From contig NZ_CP160906.1 of NCBI RefSeq assembly GCF_041080865.1, positions 248,001 to 312,000 of the forward strand: 64,000 bases of DNA, given 5' to 3'. Shown here one piece after another: positions 2,714 through 45,027 of this stretch (position 1 is the first letter of the stretch; each line of letters begins with the position of its first letter). Below the pieces are notes generated by a model. The model was not told where the DNA came from. It saw only the letters and a list, made by a program, of their open reading frames with translations, and did no database searches. The stretch is from Psychromonas sp. MME1. Lineage in GTDB: Bacteria; Pseudomonadota; Gammaproteobacteria; Enterobacterales; Psychromonadaceae. The position numbers and the translations under genes were made by a program.

Positions 2714-4330
2714 ATGAAAATTTCAAATTTAAAAATTAAACACCGTATTAACATGATAACGTTTGTTGCATTAGCCTCCTTTATCATTTCAGTCATTATT
2801 AATAACATGACTACTGCAAATAATGCAGCTAGGTTAAACGCTCTGCAAAATCAACTTTATCCGGTGCTCAATCTTGCGACGATCAATGAAGGGTTACTCA
2901 TTCAATTAGATCAGATTATTCAGTCAACGGTAACGACGGGTGAAGAAGAAAATTTACAAACCGTAAAAAAAATGGTCGATCAGATTAGTACTAACTTAGA
3001 TCAAATTGGTCAGTTATTGCCAGAAAAAACCAATACCATGCAGCAAGTAAAAAAAGACGTAGTAACTTACCATAAAAATGCAGAATTATTAGTTAGTGCT
3101 TTTTTAGCTGATGACGTGGATTTTAATGCGATTAAAGCACAAGCAGCTAGTAATGCAGAGCGCTACCAGAGTTTGGTTAAAAACTTTGCGAGTAATCTAA
3201 GAGAGTTTCAAGACCTTTTTACTCAAAGTATTGAAATTACCAATACTGAATCTGATAGTGCGCAAATGTCCATGATGATAATTGCTGTTATCGCTACGTT
3301 ATTAATGATTTTAGTGGGATTTTTAGTTAATCGCTCAATTACCTCTACACTGTCAAGTGTCACTATGTCATTACAAAATATATCCGAAGGTGAGGGTGAT
3401 TTACGTTCGCGTATTCAGTATGACGGTAAAGATGAAATAGCTGAATTAGTGCGTTGGTTTAATCAGTTTGTATCAAAATTGCAATCTTCAATCGCCGATA
3501 CTAAAAATACGACTGATAGCCTTAGTGAGGTATCAAATACCTTATTAAAGGGGACAAAAAATAGTGAGTTGAGCGTAAATGAGCAAAATATCGCTATTGA
3601 AAAAATATCGCATGCGATGAATGAAATGTTTATTAGTGTTACGCATATCGCGGAGTACGCCGCCAATGCTTCTAATGAGGCGAATGAGGCCCATAAAGAA
3701 GCACAAAATGGCTCCGTAGTGGTTAATGAAGCGGTGGCTACAATTAAGCAACTCGCAGGTGAAGTACAAACTACCGCTGCAGTCGTCAATAAACTCGATG
3801 CTTTTACGAACAATGTTAATGATATTTTAGACACTATCAGAGGCATTGCGGATCAAACTAATCTGCTTGCATTAAACGCCGCAATTGAAGCTGCTAGAGC
3901 GGGTGAACAGGGGCGCGGTTTTGCTGTCGTTGCTGATGAGGTGAGAACATTGGCTTCTCGTACTCAAGCGTCGACTCAAGAGATTCAGCAGGTGTTACAG
4001 GAACTTAGAACATCATCGAAGCAAGCTGTTCAAGCCATGCAGCATGGTGTGATAACTGCAAATGATGGCGTTGAATCAACGATGCGAGCAGGAACAGCAT
4101 TAACCAGCATTAACATGAAAGTCAGTGCGATAAGCGAAGTTAACGAACAGATTGCAGCTGCCACTGAAGAGCAAAATAATACCTCTGTGTTAATTCAAAA
4201 ATATGTTGCTGACATTCAATCTAATTCACAAAAAGTACAAACAACCACTAAAGATATGGGAGGGATTAGTTTCGATATTCAAAATGTAAGTCAACAGCTA
4301 CAAATTATCACCAATCAATTTAAAGTATAA
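2714..4330 (+). CDS. Methyl-accepting chemotaxis protein
   Basis: This is a membrane chemoreceptor that would signal through CheW/CheA to the flagellar motor. A first transmembrane helix lies near residues 14-32, a helical periplasmic region of about 150 residues follows, and the second membrane helix is near 187-207. A HAMP linker comes next, then a long coiled-coil signalling domain. The conserved hairpin tip ([19 protein letters not shown] onwards) is around residues 380-410. The 538-residue length is normal for the 4HB-type class. The ligand cannot be read from sequence, but the two genes after it encode a porin-like protein and a small PstS-like binding protein, which suggests a phosphate-related or other oxyanion signal. 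Confidence 0.93.
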
Positions 4331-4365
4331 GAAAAATAATAATTAATATTACAGGGAGTTACATA

Positions 4366-5532
4366 ATGAAGTTTAATTTGAAAACGTTACCACTGGCGAT
4401 TTCTATTGCCTTCGTGCCAGTCTCAGGGATGGCTGACGAAATGATGGATGCAAAAGTTGCACAATTAGAGCAACAAGTTAAGGCATTACAAGCGCACCAA
4501 ACCAATAGTTTAGTCGATAGATTTAATTTTAATGGATTTATCAGTGGTGCTTATATCAGTTCAAATAATCGAGCCAGTTATAACGGCGCAACCTCCAGTG
4601 CCGATTTTTCTCAAGATAGTAAAATGGGCTTTCAAGGCTCTTTTAATATCAATAATCAAACTCAGGCTGTTTTGCAGCTTCTGATGAAAGGTGAAGATGA
4701 TTGGGATGTTAAAGCGGAATGGGCGTATTTATCGTACCGTTTGGATAATGGTGTAAAGGTACGAGGTGGTAAGTTGCGTGTGCCTCTATTTATGTATTCT
4801 GATTACTTAGATGTTGGCTACGCTCAACCCTTTGCCCGTCCACCAAAAGAAGTTTATGACCATGTCATTTTTACTTCATATACAGGTGGTGATATTGCTT
4901 ATGATATCGAATTTGACGATTCAACCTTAACATTGCAAGCCTTTGGTGGTGAATCGAATGTTAATGAAGATAGTATTAATGTAGATTTTTCTAACTTAAT
5001 AGGGGGGAGTGCAGCCTGGACTGATCTCACCTGGACTGTCCGCGCTGTATATGGACAAGCTGATGTAGATGGCGCTGTCTTCGGTGGGGCTTTACCTGTC
5101 GAAGATGAGCAAGCTACATTTACAGGAATCGGTGGTAGTTACGATAATGGTTCATTCCTTGCTGTTACAGAATGGACAAAAGTAAAAGTTGATGGCTTGC
5201 TTGCCGATCATGAGTCAGGATATTTGACATTAGGTTATCGTATTGATGTATTTACGCCCTATACAACGGTCGCTTACATGAAAACTACCGACAACGACAA
5301 AAGAACCTCAATGCCGCTAAATCTTGCATTAAATGATAAAAGAACAGCTTATAGCGCAGGTGTTCGTTGGGATGCTATTGATAATGTGGCTATTAAATTT
5401 GATTTAACCTATGCCACTGATTTTGGTGATACCTCCGGTGGTTTATCTGGTAATGAATATAATCCTGCGACTGGTTCATTCATGCTCGATGATACATTTG
5501 TCTACACAGTTAAGTTCGACGCGGTATTTTAA
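4366..5532 (+). CDS. Outer-membrane porin-like beta-barrel protein
   Basis: The protein starts with a Sec signal peptide (residues 1-23, ending around GMADE). A short coiled-coil segment rich in Gln and Leu follows (about 27-48), then alternating aromatic/polar strands typical of a beta-barrel, ending in a terminal Phe as outer-membrane proteins do. N-terminal coiled coils before a barrel are known from trimeric porins. At 388 residues it is porin sized. A GGGAG ribosome-binding site precedes the start. It sits 35 bases after the chemoreceptor and 11 bases before the PstS-like gene, so the three are probably cotranscribed. I cannot name the substrate. Confidence 0.75.
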   Translation: MKFNLKTLPLAISIAFVPVSGMADEMMDAKVAQLEQQVKALQAHQTNSLVDRFNFNGFISGAYISSNNRASYNGATSSADFSQDSKMGFQGSFNINNQTQAVLQLLMKGEDDWDVKAEWAYLSYRLDNGVKVRGGKLRVPLFMYSDYLDVGYAQPFARPPKEVYDHVIFTSYTGGDIAYDIEFDDSTLTLQAFGGESNVNEDSINVDFSNLIGGSAAWTDLTWTVRAVYGQADVDGAVFGGALPVEDEQATFTGIGGSYDNGSFLAVTEWTKVKVDGLLADHESGYLTLGYRIDVFTPYTTVAYMKTTDNDKRTSMPLNLALNDKRTAYSAGVRWDAIDNVAIKFDLTYATDFGDTSGGLSGNEYNPATGSFMLDDTFVYTVKFDAVF

Positions 5533-5543
5533 GGGGCGATAAA

Positions 5544-5939
5544 ATGAAACAATTATTATTAGTATTAACGCTCGTATTTGGCGTTGTTTTCTCTGTTTCA
5601 GCAGGGGTGGTGGTTATAGGTAATCCAGCCGCGAGTGATATATCATTAGGTGAAGCCAAAAAATTGTTCTTAGGAAAAGGGGATACTTCACTGGTGATTT
5701 ATGAACTAGATGAAGGTGATGCAACTCGTACTGAATTCCACTCTGTGGTAACGGGGAAATCAGAGTCTCAGTTAAAAGCCTTCTGGTCGAAGCAAGTTTT
5801 TACCGGTAAGGGAAATCCGCCTGCAACGGTCTCATCAGCGTCTGCGATGAAAGCGGCTGTCGCTGCAAATCCTAATGCGATAGGTTATATTGATGAGGCT
5901 GATCTTGATAGTTCAGTTAAGGTTATTTTAAAGCCTTAG
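5544..5939 (+). CDS. Small periplasmic PstS-like substrate-binding protein
   Basis: A signal peptide covers about residues 1-20. The rest matches the short PstS-like phosphate-binding domain family: a start of the VVVIGNPAASDISLGEAKKLF type, a central KAFWSKQVFTGKG element, and a C-terminal AIGYIDE block. At 131 residues it is about half the size of a true PstS and has only one lobe-like unit, so high-affinity transport is doubtful. No ABC permease or ATPase gene lies nearby. It could bring a ligand to the adjacent chemoreceptor or the porin; that role is inference from position. Confidence 0.75.
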   Translation: MKQLLLVLTLVFGVVFSVSAGVVVIGNPAASDISLGEAKKLFLGKGDTSLVIYELDEGDATRTEFHSVVTGKSESQLKAFWSKQVFTGKGNPPATVSSASAMKAAVAANPNAIGYIDEADLDSSVKVILKP

Positions 5940-5967
5940 GTCTATTAATTAGTTCATTTCTCATAAT

Positions 5968-6007
5968 AAAAAGAGGTCGCCCCTATAAGGTGTTACCTCT
6001 TTTTTTT
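5968..6007 (+). terminator. Rho-independent terminator after the porin/PstS-like cluster
   Basis: AAAAAGAGGT pairs with ACCTCTTTTT around a 17-base loop and runs into a tract of Ts. It closes the chemoreceptor-porin-binding protein transcription unit. Confidence 0.85.
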
Positions 6008-6030
6008 AATCATCCCGTAGGTAATTGCAT

Positions 6031-6186
6031 TATTCTGCATAATATTGTGATCTGGGCTTGTTGAAGAAAAATGATGGAGAGTAAGGCGCATAATTGAGTA
6101 ATCGTTAGCTATTGCGATTGAATGCAATGCAGCTTTCTATTATTTTAACCAACAAGATAGATCAGATCTTAAGCTTATTGGTATAA
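6031..6186 (+). repeat. Dispersed repeat family 1, copy A
   Basis: This roughly 155-base intergenic sequence contains GCATAATATTGTGATC near its start and ACCAACAAGATAGATC near its end, and finishes with TTGGTATAAG. Related sequences occur at 9399-9559 (reverse), 27815-27980 and 37055-37192. It has no coding capacity. The inverted ends and intergenic placement suggest a non-autonomous MITE-like or REP-like element. Confidence 0.7.
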
Positions 6187-6203
6187 GTATCTGTTCTCAC
6201 TTT

Positions 6204-6854
6204 CTACTGCATTATCGCCTTTTTTTGACGCGATCCGTTCACTAGCTGCTGTGCCGTTAGTTGTTGTAACGGTGATAACTCGCTATATAGCAGCATCGGT
6301 TTTTGATACTTATTGGGATCGGTCACGAGTGCTAGCTCTCCCTGATGAAGTTGATAAAAATAATCCCGATAGCTTTCATTGTCATTGCTCTCTAAAAACT
6401 GTTTTAGATTTATAATTTTTTCTACCTCAGCGATAGATAATGGTTTTTTATAATGGCTAAATTCCACGATATGCGTTTGTTGTAACTGTGTCGATTGCTT
6501 GTTTTGTTGAGCAATTTGTTGTGCCGTGTGAATTTTATTGTTGAGCACATGCGCTTCGACAAGGGGAATGCGGTTAAAAAAATCATATAATTTATCTGCG
6601 CATAAAAAAAGTGCTTGCTGTTTCGCTAATGGAGCGTCTTGAAAATCGATAATTGGCTGGCATTTGCTAGATAAAAAAGGTTCATAGCCAATCTCTTTTT
6701 GTTGCATAAAGAGTAGTAGTTGTTGTACTGCATCACTCAATTTTCGTTGTGATGCCATAATGTTTTGCTTACTAATCTCTAATTGTTGCCCGTCAAAGCT
6801 CATAAATAGGGTGATCAGTGTTACTTCTATTTTTTGCATAATATGGCTGTCCAT
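6204..6854 (-). CDS. Uncharacterised protein paired with the PstS-like/OmpA fusion
   Basis: I do not recognise this 216-residue protein. It lacks a signal peptide and clear membrane helices. It is mostly helical and Gln-rich, with a central QQIAQQNKQSTQLQQT stretch near residues 112-128, and contains two cysteines. An ATG at residue 6 is an alternative start to the one at 6854. The gene begins 18 bases after the stop of the fusion gene, so the two are very likely cotranscribed from the PhoB-like promoter upstream of the fusion. A cytoplasmic partner of the fusion's N-terminal segment is possible but unproven. Confidence 0.7.
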   Translation of the reverse strand: MDSHIMQKIEVTLITLFMSFDGQQLEISKQNIMASQRKLSDAVQQLLLFMQQKEIGYEPFLSSKCQPIIDFQDAPLAKQQALFLCADKLYDFFNRIPLVEAHVLNNKIHTAQQIAQQNKQSTQLQQTHIVEFSHYKKPLSIAEVEKIINLKQFLESNDNESYRDYFYQLHQGELALVTDPNKYQKPMLLYSELSPLQQLTAQQLVNGSRQKKAIMQ

Positions 6855-37249: not shown

Positions 37250-37426
37250 CTAATTAATGGAATTGGCATTATTATTTAACTGTTTTATTTTATTTTGCAT
37301 TGCTTTTGCTTTACTAACTATTGGGTGATGATTTTCACAGCCACGAAGCTCTAATTCTAAAATCATTGCTTCTAATAATAGTGGCACTTCCATCAGTAAC
37401 GCTGTTGAATTTTCGTGATTACTCAT
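37250..37426 (-). CDS. Small uncharacterised protein (58 residues)
   Basis: An ATG at 37426 preceded by a strong GGGGGG-type ribosome-binding site opens a 58-codon frame beginning MSNHENSTALLMEVPLLLEA and ending NNANSIN. It is hydrophilic and helical with one cysteine in LRGCENHHPIV, and has no signal peptide or membrane helix. I do not recognise the family. The ribosome-binding site and position, on the same strand as and just downstream of the ATP-grasp module, support a real gene. Confidence 0.6.
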   Translation of the reverse strand: MSNHENSTALLMEVPLLLEAMILELELRGCENHHPIVSKAKAMQNKIKQLNNNANSIN

Positions 37427-37579: not shown

Positions 37580-37631
37580 CAAACCCGTCATTATTGCATC
37601 TCAGTTACGATATGAACGAATGACGGGTTTG
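37580..37631. terminator. Hairpin downstream of the ATP-grasp gene
   Basis: CAAACCCGTCATT and AATGACGGGTTTG form a 13-base perfect stem with a 26-base loop, six bases from the 3' end of the ATP-grasp gene. The long loop and weak U-tract on the minus strand make a stabilising or regulatory role possible as well as termination. Confidence 0.6.
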
Positions 37632-37636
37632 TTTAT

Positions 37637-38590
37637 TTAGCGCGAGGGAGTAAAGTGTTGTTTACAAAAATCAATGCGCTCCTGAACACTCATTGTACTT
37701 GTGTCTCCTAAGCTTTCGATAAGCTTTAATCGAGGTAAAATGCCTGTTCCATTGGCTATTTGAATTGCAAGTCCGGGGCGAGCATTGAGCTCCAATAACA
37801 TAGGCCCTTGCTCGCGATCTAATACCATATCAGTGCCAAGATAACCCATTCCACACATTTCATAGCAACTAGCAGCAAGATAAATAAGCCTTTCCCAATG
37901 TGGTACTTCTAATGTTTTTAACTCTTTATTGGTATCAGGATGAAATTTAATTGATTGATCAAACTGCACTGCATGTAACGCTCTGCCGGATGTTATATCA
38001 ACACCAACTCCAACAGCACCTTGATGCAAATTAGCTTTACCATTGGATGCTGCGGTTGAAAGTCGCATCATCGCCATTATAGGAAAGCCTTTAAAGACGA
38101 TTACGCGAACATCGGGAACACCTTCAAAACTAAATCCATCAAAGGCATTATCAAACTGGATAAGTCCTTCAATAACGGCAACATCAGCGCCTCCCCCTAA
38201 ACTAAACAATCCTGCAAGAATATCTGTAACATGGCGTTTAATTTCCGATAGGCTTTCTTCGCTACCACTGGCTTTAAAATAGCGACCATTCTCAATTTTA
38301 GTAATAACTAAAATACCTTTACCACCACTACCTTTTGCAGGCTTAATAACAAAACCAGGCGCATCTTTAATATATTTTTCAACGCCGTCAACTTCAGCTT
38401 GTACGGATATAACACCTAATAAAGCGGGTGTTGTGACATTGGCCTTTTGGGCTATTATTTTAGTTTGTAACTTATTATCAACTAAAGGATAAAGCCTACG
38501 TGGATTATAACGGCCAATATAGCGACCGTTACGTTGGTTCATGCCAAGCACTCCATTAGCCTTTAGTGTAAATGGATTCGCAAATAACAT
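37637..38590 (-). CDS. RimK-related ATP-grasp, alpha-L-glutamate ligase-like protein
   Basis: ATP-grasp ligases of this type join an amino acid, usually glutamate, to a carboxylate. The 317 residues include GVLGMNQRNGRYI near the start, the ATP-binding lysine segment FVIKPAKGSGGKGILVI around 81-97, and the metal-binding GYLGTDMVLDREQGPMLLELNARPGL near 247-272. No substrate can be read from sequence. Its start overlaps or abuts the stop of the 7-TM gene upstream, so translation is coupled. The three-gene set with the 7-TM inactive transglutaminase and the retropepsin-like lipoprotein recurs in many proteobacteria. Confidence 0.9.
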   Translation of the reverse strand: MLFANPFTLKANGVLGMNQRNGRYIGRYNPRRLYPLVDNKLQTKIIAQKANVTTPALLGVISVQAEVDGVEKYIKDAPGFVIKPAKGSGGKGILVITKIENGRYFKASGSEESLSEIKRHVTDILAGLFSLGGGADVAVIEGLIQFDNAFDGFSFEGVPDVRVIVFKGFPIMAMMRLSTAASNGKANLHQGAVGVGVDITSGRALHAVQFDQSIKFHPDTNKELKTLEVPHWERLIYLAASCYEMCGMGYLGTDMVLDREQGPMLLELNARPGLAIQIANGTGILPRLKLIESLGDTSTMSVQERIDFCKQHFTPSR

Positions 38591-40119
38591 TATTTTTCCT
38601 TGTTAGCTAAGGGTCTAAATCTGCGTAGCTCTAATAAACGGTAACCCGTATAGCTTCCGAGTACGAGTACTAATGACATAACAACAAACTGTAATCCAAT
38701 AAAGTTAAACATTAAATAGCGAGTGACCACGTTGCTCATGGCGAAATAGGCGAGCACTGCAACAATTAAGCTTCCACCACCTTGTAGCATAACCTGTTTA
38801 GGGCCTTCTTCTTCCCATAGAACCGACATACGTTCAATGGTCCATGAAAGAATGATCATTGGGAAGAATGTTATTTTTAATCCTTCAGTGAGACCTAGCT
38901 TATAAGCTAGGACACTAAACATAGCGATCAACAAAATAACCATGATGATAACAGTCGATATTCGTGCCACCAGTAATAAATTGAGGTGTGAAAGATATGA
39001 ACGGATAAATAAGCCAACCGCTACGAGTAGCAGAAAACCTAAAATCCCGGTTATCAGACTGGTTTGAATAAATGCCATGGCGATTAAAACAGGCATGAAT
39101 GTACCTGATGTTTTAAGTCCAATTAGTACGCGCATAATAACAACAATTAGCACACCTAATGGAATCATTAAAATATTTTTAAAGGTTGATTGGTCTTCAA
39201 TAGGTAGGCTATGTATTGAAAAATTGAACAAATGGTCGTTATCTGATTTTTGTAGCAAGGCGGATAAAGCAGGGTGTTCTTGTTTGATCATAGAAAAACT
39301 GATGCGAGAGTTTTCTCCGCCAGTCAGCTCAATAACGGCCTTGCCGCTTTGATCCCAAAGCAATAAATTATCACGATTGACTGCTTGCAGGTTTTCAGGG
39401 TTGAATAGTTTTGATGTAATATCGCCATCTTTTTCTTCAAACACTTCAACGAAATACGATAATTGCTGTTGTCTAAAACCATCCTCTAATTCAAGCGCTG
39501 CAATTTTTTTGCTTGGTATTTCAGCTTCATTTAGCAGTGAGATCAGTAAGTCTGCTTTTGAAGTGGCTCGTGATAATAGCAATGTCACATTTTGGTTTGG
39601 ATTTTGGTCATTAAGTTGCTTGATTATTTCACGAGCGAAACTATATGCATCGGCACTTGTTGCCATGGCATCTTTAATGAGATCTTTTCCTGCTGTATAT
39701 GCTGAGGCTTCATATTCTTTTTCAAATAAAGGTGGCAGGGCGGTTATTTGTGGGGCATCAATTTTATCACTCACAAGCATTTGTACATTATAGTAGAGTG
39801 TTTGTGTGCCATTGGCTTCACGTTTAGTCCATTGTGCCAACGCGTGTCCATTTTCATCTAAAAATGATAGCCCATAGCCAGGCGATGAAGCTGTTTGTGA
39901 TATTTGATTATATCCAGCTTGCTGAGTCGGGATAGATAATGAAGCGATAATAGGCTCACCATTCGCTTCAAAACTAACCTTAGCATCAATATTCCAAATA
40001 GTACGAGTTTCTCCTGGTAACCAAGGAATATCAAAGGCAATGTGTCGTTGTACTGTTTGAAATATACCAATGCTAAACAGCCCTGCAACTAATGCATAAA
40101 ATAAAATACGAGCCTTCAT
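38590..40119 (-). CDS. Inactive transglutaminase-like domain fused to seven membrane helices
   Basis: The 509-residue protein has an N-terminal membrane segment (about 4-20) and a large periplasmic region. That region contains the degenerate transglutaminase-like domain (about 160-260), in which I see no Cys-His-Asp triad. It ends with a block of about seven membrane helices from residue 315 onward (SLPIEDQSTFKNILMIPLGV, then many hydrophobic stretches). This domain pair is known from genomic surveys and is found beside ATP-grasp and retropepsin-like genes. It may present or bind a periplasmic peptide substrate. Confidence 0.88.
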   Translation of the reverse strand: MKARILFYALVAGLFSIGIFQTVQRHIAFDIPWLPGETRTIWNIDAKVSFEANGEPIIASLSIPTQQAGYNQISQTASSPGYGLSFLDENGHALAQWTKREANGTQTLYYNVQMLVSDKIDAPQITALPPLFEKEYEASAYTAGKDLIKDAMATSADAYSFAREIIKQLNDQNPNQNVTLLLSRATSKADLLISLLNEAEIPSKKIAALELEDGFRQQQLSYFVEVFEEKDGDITSKLFNPENLQAVNRDNLLLWDQSGKAVIELTGGENSRISFSMIKQEHPALSALLQKSDNDHLFNFSIHSLPIEDQSTFKNILMIPLGVLIVVIMRVLIGLKTSGTFMPVLIAMAFIQTSLITGILGFLLLVAVGLFIRSYLSHLNLLLVARISTVIIMVILLIAMFSVLAYKLGLTEGLKITFFPMIILSWTIERMSVLWEEEGPKQVMLQGGGSLIVAVLAYFAMSNVVTRYLMFNFIGLQFVVMSLVLVLGSYTGYRLLELRRFRPLANKEK

Positions 40120-40127
40120 AGGATTCC

Positions 40128-40856
40128 TTACTCTTTAGTTTTTGATTTATATTTGGGGTGAATATATTCTTGGCTAATATCAACAAGTACAAGATCTTGC
40201 ATGAATGTACGGCCAATTAAAACGGGGTATTCCATATGTGAACGGTCAGCAAGAGTGAACTCTGTCAAGGTTGAAATACCACCAAGGTGAATACGTAACT
40301 TAACTACGATACGTTCATTTTCTACACCAGGATTGCTTGATTGTACAATTTTAGCGATACGGTCAATTTTTGCTTCTATTGGTGTGCCTTTCTCTTCATT
40401 TACATGGGGTAGTGTAAAACGAACCCATTTTTGACCATCGCGTTCAAATCTTTGGATATCTTGGGCATTAAGTGAAGAGGTGGTCGCTCCGGTATCAATT
40501 CTCCCTTTAAAATTACTTTTTGCTGAAGAGATGTATACCCATTCAGTCTGTCCAAGAATCGTTTTATTACCAATTTTTTCTACACTGTTATTGGTTGCTG
40601 CATTTGCTGTTTTAACTTCTGCTTTTAATGTATTTGTTAGCGTTGTTAATTGAGCAACTTTTGTTTTGCTTTTTGCTAGTTCAGTTTCTTTTTCAACTAG
40701 TTTGCTTTGTAATGCTTTATTTTGTTGTTGATTTTCTTGTAAAGATGTTTGTAAATCATTTAATTGTTTTTCTTGTACTTCATTACTTGTTACTGCACAC
40801 CCTGAAAGGAGAAAAAAAGTGAGTAAAAGTGTCATTGTACATTTATTTAATGGCAT
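40128..40856 (-). CDS. Retropepsin-like aspartic peptidase lipoprotein (often mislabelled ATP-dependent zinc protease)
   Basis: The 242-residue protein has a lipoprotein signal with lipobox LLSGC (Cys20). A coiled coil of about 60 residues follows (25-85), then a retropepsin-type domain with the catalytic DTGATTSSL motif at Asp121 and VLIGRTFMQDLVLVDIS near the end. The DTG motif and absence of an HExxH site contradict the common zinc-protease label. It starts the three-gene operon and lies nine bases before the 7-TM gene. A role in trimming peptides modified by the ATP-grasp enzyme is plausible but unproven. Confidence 0.88.
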   Translation of the reverse strand: MPLNKCTMTLLLTFFLLSGCAVTSNEVQEKQLNDLQTSLQENQQQNKALQSKLVEKETELAKSKTKVAQLTTLTNTLKAEVKTANAATNNSVEKIGNKTILGQTEWVYISSAKSNFKGRIDTGATTSSLNAQDIQRFERDGQKWVRFTLPHVNEEKGTPIEAKIDRIAKIVQSSNPGVENERIVVKLRIHLGGISTLTEFTLADRSHMEYPVLIGRTFMQDLVLVDISQEYIHPKYKSKTKE

Positions 40857-41044
40857 AAAAATTCCTTAACTACTATTTGATAACCTAATAAATTATAAAA
40901 TATATTTTATATAATGGTAATAGTAGCATTTTTATTGTGTTGTTATCTGTAACTTATTAATTTTTTATAGTGTGTAGTTAATTTTTATTACGCAACGAAC
41001 CATTGGTTTAGCTTTTGATAGTCGTTTCATGTGATGGATAAGTG

Positions 41045-42606
41045 CTAATTGTGAGTTTTTACTTTTCGGTATATAAACACGCCTAGCAATATCAATGTGC
41101 AGTAGATTTGTAATGGTATTGAGCCATAGTTTTGATAAGGTGTTTTGCCTATCGCAGGCTTAAATAAATGGCTCAATACCGCCGCTTTATCGCGTTCTAG
41201 CCGAGCGATTTCATCGCCATTCCTATCAAACATAGCCGTAACACCATTATTTGTGACGCGTAGTAGTGGGCGAGCAAATTCAATGGCGCGCATTCTTGCA
41301 ATTTGTAAATGCTGGTCGGGACCGATTGAGTTGCCAAACCATGCATCATTACTAATTGTTAAGATTGTGCCTGTGGTTGCTGTTATGTTTTGTCTTAATA
41401 GTTCTGGGAATGCGATTTCATAACATAATGCAGCGGCTATTGCTGACTCTGGAGATTGTAAGTTATTTTGTACCTCCGAACCTCGAGCAAAGCTTGACAT
41501 CGGTAGGTTGAAATAAGGGGCAAGTGGACGTAATAGGTTTTCGAAGGGAACAAATTCACCGATCGGTAACAGATGATGTTTTTGATAGCGATTACCGCCC
41601 GTTAAAGAATAATCACTCCCAGCGGGTAACTTACCCAGTGCAATGATGGTATTATAATATTGATCCGTTTTACGTGTATAACCAATTATTCCAGTGATCA
41701 GTGTTTTGTTGCGAATGGCTAGGCTTTCTGAAAGTGGTTGTAAGAAATTTTGCATATCTAGTTCAAGTGCTGCAATGGCTGACTCAGGCCAGATGATCAG
41801 CTCTGGTTGGTCATCTAAACCTGTCTCACTAAGGTCAAGGTATTTAAACAGCGAGGGGTAGAGCTGTTCTGGTAACCACTTTTCCTTTTGCGCTATATTT
41901 CCCTGTACTAAAGAGGCCATTTGCGCAGGTTGTTGATCTGTATATTCCTTTGTTTTTAATGCACTGCCCGTTATGAATAAAATACAGATAAGGGTAATAT
42001 TTAAGAATATTTTTTCTCTTTGTAGCAGTAATGCCAGTGCACCACAGATAATCATAATTGCGAGGGTTACACCTTGAACACCTAAAATAGGCGCATAACC
42101 AACGAGAGGGGTATCTGCATGGCTATAACCTAAATAGGCCCATGGGAATCCTGTTAAAACAAATCCTCTTAACCAATCAGATATTAACCACAAAACGGGT
42201 GTTAATAAAAGATAGCGAATGCTTTTATTAAGCCAGAAAAAGCGGGCATTTAGCCATAATGCTAAGGTTGGAAAAAGCGCTAAATAGGCACATAAAATAA
42301 GGATGAGTAATAGATTGACTAACATTGGCATGCCACCAAATAGGTCCATGCTCACATAGACCCAGTGGATGGTACCGATAAAAAAGGCAATGCTAAAAGT
42401 AAAACTCACTAAAAAATAGTGTTTAGTGGTCTTGTGTAGATGGTCAAATAATAGAAAAAAGCGACCAAAGAGGGATAAATGACCCATTCGTGTTGATATG
42501 GTGCAAATGCAAAAATTTGTACGACACCCAAAACAAAGGCAACAATCAGTTGCCCCCAAATCTGTCCTATAAATCGGCGCAGATGACTGAATATACTATT
42601 TATCAA
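41045..42606 (-). CDS. lnt: Apolipoprotein N-acyltransferase (one-base frameshift)
   Basis: Lnt adds the third acyl chain to outer-membrane lipoproteins. An N-terminal set of membrane helices precedes a nitrilase domain with the catalytic glutamate in IWPESAIAALEL, the lysine in RYQKHHLLPIGEFVPF, and the cysteine in AALCYEIAFPE. The first 50 residues ([20 protein letters not shown]) are in a different frame; one T is missing from a T run at 42455-42460, after PSLVAFF. Restored length is 520 residues (512 in E. coli). lnt overlaps corC by four bases. The gene is essential in most relatives, so the break is probably a sequence error. Confidence 0.94.
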
Positions 42607-43463
42607 TCGGTTTTTCGCTCTTTAGGAATACGTACTTGCAATTGTATTAAACGACGGCTATCAGCTTTAGTTACCTTAAACTTGTAGCCATCAATGACTG
42701 CAATTTCTTCTCTTGCTGGTAAATGGCCAAGTTTATGTGTGATTAATCCACCTATCGTATCTTGCTCTTCATTACTATATTTTGTTAAAAAATAATCATT
42801 AAAGTCTTCGATAGAGGTGAGTGCATTGACCGCATAGGTTCTTTTGCCTATTTTGCGTATTTCAGCAATATCGACATCATCATATTCATCTTCTATTTCA
42901 CCCACAATTACTTCGAGAATATCTTCAATAGTGACCAACCCTGATACACCACCATATTCATCAACAACAATGGCCATGTGGTAGCGTTGGCTGCGAAACT
43001 CTTTTAGCAGTGTATCGAGACGTTTACTTTCTGGGACAACAACCGCTTCACGAAGAATATCTTCAATTTTAAAATCGTGTGCCTCGCTGCTGAAGCCGTA
43101 TACAAGTAAGTCTTTGGCCAAAAGCAAACCGACTATATGGTCTTTATCCTCGGTTATCACCGGGAAACGCGAGTGTGATGATTCGATAAGCTGAGGAAGA
43201 AATTCTTGTACACTTTGATGTAAACCAAGCGTTATCATTTGCGCTCGCGGTATCATGATATCACGAACGCGTAATTTAGAGACATCAAGCACGCCTTTGA
43301 TCATATCTTTGGTTTTTTGATCGATGATCTCACGTTGTTTTGCACCTTGAATAATTTCTAATAACTCTTTTTTATTTTTTGGAACGCCATTAAAAAGGTT
43401 ACCAATTTTATCAAATAATCCAGGTTTAGGCTCGTCTAGTTGCTCTTGCTTGTCATCAGACAT
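42603..43463 (-). CDS. corC: CorC-type CBS/transporter-associated domain protein (YbeX)
   Basis: CorC is linked to magnesium and cobalt efflux and to ribosome-related stress. The 286 residues have two CBS domains ([13 protein letters not shown] near 68, and [21 protein letters not shown] near 156) and a C-terminal CorC/HlyC domain ([16 protein letters not shown]). It lies between ybeY and lnt as in E. coli, six bases after ybeY. Confidence 0.95.
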
Positions 43464-43468
43464 TAATT

Positions 43469-43948
43469 TTATTTACTCTTTTCACTTAAATAGGGATCTG
43501 CAAAATCAAGTTTGATTAACAGCTCTGTTTCGATTGATTCCATTTTTTCAGCTTGCTCATCAATGATATGATCATAACCTAAAAGGTGCAAGGTACCATG
43601 AATGAGCATATGTGCCCAGTGAGCAGTTAGCTCTTTTTTTTGTGCTATTGCTTCACTTTCAACAACTTCCTTACAAATAATAAGATCCCCAAGTAGTGGT
43701 AATGTTAACCCTGGGGGATTTTGAAAAGGAAATGAAAGGACATTGGTTGGCTTGTCTTGAGCTCTATATTGATTATTTAATTGCTGACTCTCAATGAGTT
43801 CAACAATACGTACCGTGACTTCTGCTCTTTTGCGTAGCGATTTTGAACCCGCAGTGATTGCTGCACTAACCCATTCTTGCATCATTGCTAATGAGGGTAA
43901 TGATTGTTGATTAATAGTCGCTATTTGTAAATCAATATAAAGTCGCAT
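43469..43948 (-). CDS. ybeY: Endoribonuclease YbeY
   Basis: YbeY is a zinc-dependent RNase for 16S rRNA maturation and 70S quality control. The zinc motif [11 protein letters not shown] places ligands at His117, His121 and His127, preceded by the conserved TNVLSFPF block and GDLIIC. At 159 residues it matches E. coli (155). The start overlaps the ybeZ stop by one base. Confidence 0.96.
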
Positions 43949-44982
43949 TATTTTTTCTCCATATGCTCCGCTGCTAATTCAGTTTTTCGGTCAAAGGCTT
44001 CATAGGCCTTGACGATGCGAGCCACAACTGGATGTCGAACAACATCATCAGCGACAAAGAAGCTAAAACTGATTCCATCATCGATTTCACCCAGTACTTC
44101 AATCGCATGACGTAATCCTGATTTCTGATGCCGAGGTAAATCGATCTGTGTAATGTCGCCGGTGATAACCGCGGTCGAATTAAAACCGATGCGGGTTAGA
44201 AACATTTTCATCTGTTCAACAGTTGTATTTTGGCTCTCATCTAAAATGACAAATGCATCATTTAACGTGCGTCCTCGCATATAGGCAAGAGGTGCAATTT
44301 CTATTACATTGCGTTCGATTAATTTCTCAACTTTCTCAAAGCCTAGCATTTCGAAAAGGGCATCATACAAAGGTCGTAAATAGGGATCAACTTTTTGCGA
44401 TAAATCCCCGGGTAAAAAACCTAATTTTTCACCCGCTTCAACGGCTGGACGAGTCAATAATATACGGCGAACTTCTTGCCGTTCCAACGCTTCAATGGCG
44501 CATGCCACGGCTAGATAGGTTTTACCTGTGCCAGCAGGCCCGATACCAAAGCTAATATCATTGGTGAGCATGTTATTGACATATTTTGTTTGATTTTCCC
44601 CACGAGGTTTAATGATGCCACGTTTTGTTTTAATTGATAACGTTTGGTAGGCCGTTTGCTGTTCGTTACTCTTCACTTCTAATAAATGATGATTATTAAT
44701 GAGCGCTTGCAGGGCGAGATGGATATCAGAATCATTTAAGGTTGCCCTTTTTCCTTTTACGGTCAATGTTTCGATATAAAGATCTTTTAATAAATCACTA
44801 CAAGCTTGTGCATAGCGATGTTCACCAAGAATTTGGAAATGTGCACCCTTATAGACGATTTCAACACCTAAACGACGTTCAATTTGTTTTAAATTGTCAT
44901 CAAAGGCACCGCACAAGATCGCTAATCGGCTGGTATCGGCTGGTACTAAATCAAGATGAACTGTAGTTAACTTTGTAGTCAA
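43948..44982 (-). CDS. ybeZ: PhoH-like ATPase YbeZ
   Basis: YbeZ is a PhoH-family ATPase that works with YbeY. It has Walker [13 protein letters not shown] near residue 133, [23 protein letters not shown], and Walker [17 protein letters not shown] at 44982 is the likeliest start because GAGG lies about 10 bases upstream; the TTG at 44991 is too close to that site. The predicted length of 344 residues fits E. coli (346). Confidence 0.95.
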
Positions 44983-45027
44983 AATTATCAAACCTCATTA
45001 TATGGGGATTTATACCCCTTATTATAT

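Follow-up and report, generated by a model that had tools for sequence, protein, structure and literature searches.

The genome of the marine bacterium Psychromonas sp. MME1 possesses an rloABC-type operon on the minus strand at positions 37637-40856 of the window, which is the whole 64,000-nucleotide (nt) stretch that was analysed. In the reading favoured here, which is held tentatively at close to an even chance, a polyglutamate is made in the cytosol, crosses the inner membrane in an RloB-dependent step, and is trimmed in the periplasm. In order of transcription, the genes encode an RloA-type retropepsin (40856-40128, 242 amino acids), an RloB-type membrane protein (40119-38590, 509 amino acids), and an RloC-type ATP-grasp ligase (38590-37637, 317 amino acids). 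The spacing between rloA and rloB is 8 nt, rloB and rloC overlap by 1 nt, and an AAGGA site is found upstream of each of the three starts. Pfam matches were obtained with PF05618 for RloA (1e-40), PF14402 (2e-108) and PF14400 (7.6e-51) for RloB, and PF14397 for RloC (1.7e-96). Three tightly packed genes had been predicted here from the sequence alone, and the open reading frames, the Pfam matches and TIGR02291 agree with that prediction in coordinates and domains. The narrow NCBIfam models all fall below their curated cut-offs: RloA3 (108.5 bits, cut-off 210), RloA2 (94.8, cut-off 250), RloA (91.2, cut-off 280), and RloB (322.7, cut-off 900). The genes are therefore called rlo-type and not named as orthologues. 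The closest relatives of the RloB are from Psychromonas, with 72-75% identity in 13 of the 14 loci so titled and 61% in the 14th.

The rloABC genes of Pseudomonas aeruginosa were characterised genetically in 2025 and have a role in hypo-osmotic survival (PMC12239564). At low osmolarity, the bacterium depends on three exported proteases that are redundant with each other. The triple protease mutant grows again under this condition when rloB or rloC is deleted, and its other phenotypes are then partly restored (PMC12239564). In vitro, RloA cleavage was seen with runs of 8 or 10 glutamates and not with runs of 6 or fewer (PMC12239564). Crystal structures and mutants have also been reported (PMC12239564). 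Thus, the original prediction went too far in describing the set as known from comparative genomics only, with nothing known of the substrate. Nor is it a little-described system. It belongs to the already named rlo system, with a protease that is built differently. Even in P. aeruginosa, neither the natural substrate nor the role of RloB is settled (PMC12239564).

If the favoured reading is correct, RloC would join glutamates into an alpha-linked chain in the cytosol, either free or on an acceptor. At the inner membrane, RloB would accept this chain and pass it across, and its dead transglutaminase domain would bind the periplasmic chain but leave it uncut. A helical spacer would tether RloA to the outer membrane, and this protease would cut the chain at about 8 or more residues. 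The trimming would limit how much charge and osmotic load builds up in the periplasm and could allow the cell to survive a drop in salinity. The original suggestion of a product made inside, moved across, and trimmed outside fits the present results and the published epistasis. That epistasis comes from P. aeruginosa, and the chemistry has been demonstrated only for the P. aeruginosa protease.

The three genes are co-inherited. Eighty near loci were explored, the best 80 of 245 confirmed RloB relatives in genome contigs, chosen by likeness to the window. The order A-B-C on one strand was found in all 80, with RloA cut by the contig end in one (L020). A less biased sample was made up of 143 genomes spread evenly over the class. 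PF14402 was identified in 26 of these and scored above 300 bits (strong RloB) in 21. TIGR02291 was matched in 40 and was above its cut-off in 20, all of which are within the 21 strong-RloB genomes (P ~1.6e-23 with genomes treated as independent and kinship uncorrected). In the 21st, G033, the RloC match reaches the contig end. PF05618 is present in 65 of the 143 genomes and in every strong-RloB genome, and it adjoins RloB in 20 of those 21. The exception is G120 (L087), which has RloB and RloC with no RloA in a stretch of 14 kb. Five other genomes matched PF14402. Two of these, G101 and G071, hold the active-triad type that is described below. G132 has a protease gene on the opposite strand and no RloC, and G055 has neither neighbour. 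The putative RloB of G077 (20 bits) is most likely false, and its frame (L094, 496 amino acids) begins by eye like a sodium-solute symporter.

A further sample of 398 genomes from the phylum was searched with an active-triad RloB, and the 30 best matches were taken as loci. Twenty-five of these are typical (L102-L126). RloC adjoins RloB in all 25 and RloA does so in 24, counting a fragment at a contig end (L125). In L107, no RloA was found in a stretch of 17 kb (L132). RloB and RloC stay paired where RloA is not near, and this pairing speaks for the favoured reading. Since the RloB-RloC pairs of L087 and L107/L132 have no RloA close by, trimming by an operon RloA would not be universal, which weighs against the favoured reading. 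The original prediction had named independent distribution of the three genes as one result that would count against it. Such a distribution was not seen, and the genes co-occur and adjoin.

RloC is expected to be cytosolic, with no signal or transmembrane helix. It was identified as an ATP-grasp ligase, as had been predicted, through PF14397 and through NCBIfam TIGR02291 (460.8 bits, cut-off 314.2). The GSGGKG loop and the ELNARPG motif are invariant in the RloC alignments. The AlphaFold2 model (predicted local distance difference test score 87.5, predicted template modelling score 0.87) has RimK as its best match in the PDB (5zct, E 2.7e-11), and 7qys and 5zk6 were also matched. RimK is a poly-alpha-glutamate synthetase. 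The RimK-nearest model and the invariant motifs support RloC being an active ligase, and it likely adds glutamate. Other results weigh against the favoured reading. The fold likeness to 5zct is moderate, with template modelling scores of 0.52-0.56, and ArgX/LysX-type ligases, D-Ala-D-Ala ligases, and cyanophycin synthetase also match the model. The RimK subfamily model TIGR00768 gives 38.3 bits against a cut-off of 143.4, and TIGR02291 has the status of a 'hypothetical equivalog' only. To our knowledge, there is no RloC for which a product has been identified.

Another amide, such as an amino-acid-sugar or peptidoglycan-linked one, could be the product of RloC, and the cutting of polyglutamate by RloA in vitro would then be off-target. 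The Pfam name of the RloC domain, 'sugar-transfer associated ATP-grasp', and the D-Ala-D-Ala ligase matches point in this direction. However, the RloA variants R114A and R137A are impaired in polyglutamate cleavage and also fail to rescue growth in vivo (PMC12239564), and this possibility appears very improbable.

No exact (GAR)8, which would be eight Glu codons in a row, was found in the 3.59-Mb source genome, a single contig; Asp-mixed runs were not sought. The substrate is thus probably made by an enzyme. P. aeruginosa is similar in that no genome-encoded run of 8 Glu was found. The proteome search of its authors gave no periplasmic or extracellular protein with at least 8 consecutive Glu (PMC12239564). 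RloC could instead be the writer of glutamate tails on a protein of the membrane or envelope, possibly RloB itself on its cytosolic tail or a client presented by RloB, with RloA as the periplasmic eraser. The ribosomal protein RpsF carries a tag that RimK adds and RimB takes off (PMC11957791), RloA cleaves RpsF bearing 8 C-terminal Glu in vitro (PMC12239564), and the C-terminus of RloB shows strong conservation. However, there is no known target, and a protease in the periplasm could reach a cytosolic tail only if the tagged portion were moved across. This alternative is somewhat unlikely.

The rimK-rimB set is like the operon in having an ATP-grasp ligase and a retropepsin, and RimK is the nearest fold to the RloC model. 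It differs in that RimB has no export signal (PMC12239564), whereas the RloA of the window has a lipobox signal, and in that it has no RloB-like membrane protein. The RloA of the window scores 80.5 bits with the RimB model NF052261 (cut-off 200). A separate rimK and a rimB-like gene are present at 3.549-3.551 Mb of the source genome. In the stretch around them (L093, 3545000-3556000), rimK, an AstE-like peptidase gene recognised by eye, and the rimB-like gene are together at 3917-6303. The rimB-like frame ends early, at 114 amino acids and covering profile positions 1-105 of 138, and sequence like the rest of the domain is in another frame. The gene looks to be frameshifted in the assembly, and this could be real or a sequencing error.

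The protease was predicted to be a lipoprotein aspartic peptidase with its active site at Asp121, and this agrees with what was found. RloA has DTGA at residues 121-124 with the catalytic Asp121, a lipobox (LSGC) ending in Cys20, and Ala at the +2 position, as read from the translation. PF05618 covers residues 100-235 and the catalytic domain begins at about residue 99, which leaves a spacer of about 77 residues. The heptad pattern in residues 28-92 was equalled by none of 2000 shuffles. By the +2 rule of Escherichia coli, Ala after the lipobox Cys is expected to lead to sorting to the outer membrane. The lipobox Cys, the residue other than Asp at +2, and the long heptad spacer therefore predict that RloA is an outer-membrane lipoprotein hanging on a helical, coiled-coil-like stalk. 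The relatives of known structure, by sequence, are 9g59, 9g58, and 2pma.

These features were followed through the alignment of the window and the 80 near loci. The lipobox column is Cys in 80 of the 81 RloA rows, and the other row is the one cut by the contig end (L020). The residue that comes next is never Asp in the 80 rows (Ala in 43, Val in 19, Ile in 11, and Thr in 7). Between the lipobox Cys and the catalytic domain, 79 of the 80 rows have a spacer of 69-109 residues, and L016 has one of 20 residues. Pattern rules called a lipobox in 74 of the 80 loci and 78 of the 81 rows, with the misses due in part to limitations of these rules. DSGA is found in place of DTGA in 32 of the 81 rows (L022, L035, L043, and 29 more loci, mostly Halomonas-type). 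In the Moritella loci L044, L045, and L047, a second RloA-type gene is present upstream of the operon RloA.

The window and P. aeruginosa operons share the three domains, the A-B-C order, the retropepsin motif, the basic residues, and a dead transglutaminase domain; the membership of the published RloC in TIGR02291 is assumed in this comparison. The proteases differ. In the published RloA, the active Asp is residue 48, and a disulfide is conserved in the periplasmic RloA orthologues (PMC12239564). The two-Cys disulfide of that periplasmic type is not present in the catalytic domain of the window RloA, which is instead carried on the predicted lipoprotein spacer. No Cys is present in the catalytic domain in any of the 81 RloA rows. 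The words 'lipoprotein' and 'coiled' are absent from the main text of PMC12239564. Long RloA N-termini are not unknown, since the RloA2 residue numbers given in PMC12239564 suggest a longer N-terminus.

Seven further operon RloA rows (L108, L110, L111, L113, L114, L122, and L126) likewise lack Cys in the catalytic domain, and a lipobox was found in all of these except L122. The remaining 16 operon RloA rows belong to other branches and have two Cys (15 rows) or three Cys (one row). These same 16 rows have Lys in place of Arg119. By the pattern rules, no lipobox was found in 15 of the 16; in L123, one lies 9 residues ahead of the catalytic domain. This domain is preceded by 24-35 residues in 10 of the 16 and by 43-105 in the other six, for which the rule used for open reading frames may have set the start too far upstream. 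In a tree of RloB that took in 15 of the 81 near rows, the RloB proteins with the RloA type that has no Cys form one group of 22 rows with a support of 100/100.

The basic positions R119, R166, R182, and R205 of the window RloA were compared with the glutamate-binding residues K46, R92, R114, and R137 of P. aeruginosa. They were mapped by motif and spacing with no direct alignment, and the mapping of R92 to 166 is approximate. Arg is present at 182 and at 205 in 81 of 81 rows and at 119 in 79 (with one gap and one Gln), and position 166 is Arg or Lys in all 81. The basic residues at the positions matched to glutamate binding are, from the alignment, retained in the clade of the window.

RloB was predicted to be a seven-helix membrane protein with a transglutaminase-like domain that has no visible triad. 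The AlphaFold2 model (predicted local distance difference test score 77.1, predicted template modelling score 0.55) agrees and adds one N-terminal transmembrane helix, followed by a periplasmic domain with a transglutaminase fold and then the block of seven transmembrane helices. The best match of the periplasmic domain is 3isr, titled as a putative cysteine protease (Z 13.3, root mean square deviation 4.1, 215 residues). After it come transglutaminases, including TgpA (6g4h), with Z of 6-7. The RloB of the window does not have any Cys and therefore has no transglutaminase triad. Its triad columns are a gap, Ser, and Asn, and these columns are partly gapped in the alignments. Zero Cys was also found in 95 of the 117 aligned RloB proteins. 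The seven-helix block has invariant motifs, for example TSGTFMP and WEEEG. Against a role in transport, no structural match above noise was found for this block, and AcrB-type (resistance-nodulation-division) chains were within the noise, with Z of 5.7-6.8 over 102-106 residues.

RloB could instead be a sensor or regulator of cell-wall synthesis, for which RloC makes a glutamyl ligand and RloA destroys it. The effects on cell shape, ampicillin response, and biofilm in P. aeruginosa (PMC12239564) can be explained in this way. In Shewanella vesiculosa, disruption of an RloB-type gene leads to more vesicles and to altered uniformity of vesicle size (PMC12096838), which also favours a regulator. 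However, RloA needs 8 Glu and fails at 6 or fewer (PMC12239564), which is odd for a small ligand. No operon-linked regulatory gene was noticed, although no dedicated survey was made. A regulatory RloB is thus quite improbable, and passage of the chain by RloB is still the preferred role.

The Cys-His-Asp triad is intact in eight of the 117 aligned RloB proteins (L090, L091, L092, and L097-L101). L090-L092 are from three of the 143 class genomes, and L097-L101 are from five of the 398 phylum genomes with a single family label. G033 possesses both an active-triad locus and a typical operon. The eight form one clade with a support of 100/100, but long branches meet at the join and may influence its position there. 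Because there is one clade, and five of the loci came from a search seeded with another, a live triad with no RloA is to be counted as one evolutionary event and not as eight. As in the window, homologous RloB and RloC genes adjoin, and this holds for all eight. Unlike the window, these loci have an intact triad, and a search of the eight stretches over their full length (8.4-20 kb each) gave no RloA match. G071 had no PF05618 match in the entire genome; the genomes of L097-L101 are outside that search.

Seven of the eight clusters (L090, L091, L092, L127, L128, L130, and L131) have two more genes after RloC. One encodes a protein rich in tetratricopeptide repeats (TPR), whose N-terminus looks hydrophobic by eye, and the other encodes a probable outer-membrane barrel. 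In the eighth cluster (L129), the contig continues for only about 1.8 kb downstream of RloC, and this stretch showed neither gene. The barrel matches PF11854 above the cut-off in L092 and PF13505 below the cut-off in L091 and has no Pfam match in L090. All of the barrels are similar to the L091 protein (147-174 bits). A TPR lipoprotein is also present upstream in L090 and L092. A TPR protein paired with a barrel is reminiscent of polysaccharide exporters. By this analogy, the presence of both beside RloB and RloC can be read as favouring a polymer that passes through the envelope. Among the open-access papers listed, preprints and supplements excluded, no paper was recognised on the active-triad cluster or on a lipoprotein RloA. 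A third, distant RloB branch (L088, 7447-9072; L089, 7139-8761) has a dead triad and no adjoining RloC; in L088, a PF05618 protease gene is next to RloB on the opposite strand.

RloB and RloC may form the common core of a broader family of machines, each of which builds a glutamyl polymer and moves it through the Gram-negative envelope. The live-triad clade would end in the TPR protein and the barrel, which would secrete the polymer or anchor it at the surface. In the rlo branch, the transglutaminase would have died, the exit through the outer membrane would not be in the operon, and the retropepsin would have taken over, so that the polymer would be periplasmic and act as an osmotic regulator. 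This is speculative and, taken as a whole, unlikely.

A replacement of periplasmic glucans by the rlo system was considered and rejected. OpgG is absent from the source genome, but it is present in 3 of the 21 strong-RloB genomes and 12 of the 122 others (P 0.46). Since OpgG does not avoid RloB genomes, nothing says that rlo replaces these glucans, a point that also counts against the favoured reading.

The sequence around the operon was also explored. An AT-rich gap of 188 nt (40857-41044, minus strand) separates rloA from lnt upstream. It contains a weak promoter-like TTACCA-17-TATAAT (40920-40892, minus strand), and such matches are no commoner in the region than in shuffles. TATAAT itself is rarer in the window than in shuffles, with a count of 56 against a shuffle mean of 100. 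Directly 3' of rloC, an inverted repeat, CAAACCCGTCATT ... AATGACGGGTTTG, was seen by eye at approximately 37580-37630 on the minus strand. With its long loop, it is a possible terminator of the operon. The terminator scan of the region did not list it, and the promoter and terminator scans gave site counts no higher than in shuffles. Directly upstream of the operon, at 41045-44991 on the minus strand, there is a cluster of phoH-like, ybeY-like, corC-like, and lnt genes, of which lnt was assigned by family search and the others were named by eye. Downstream, a small open reading frame of 58 amino acids (37250-37426, minus strand) had no tblastn match at 1e-3 among the loci collected.

The co-inheritance counts, the lipoprotein variant of RloA, and the sister clade with an intact triad are new here. 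The relatives of the operon suggest a possible evolutionary route of the rlo system. The source genome has one exported PF05618 gene, compared with three in P. aeruginosa, and a single deletion may thus reveal what took three there. The lipoprotein RloA on its spacer gives a place of action that can be tested. It will be interesting to determine what the dead transglutaminase domain binds, and the active-triad relatives offer a way to ask this.

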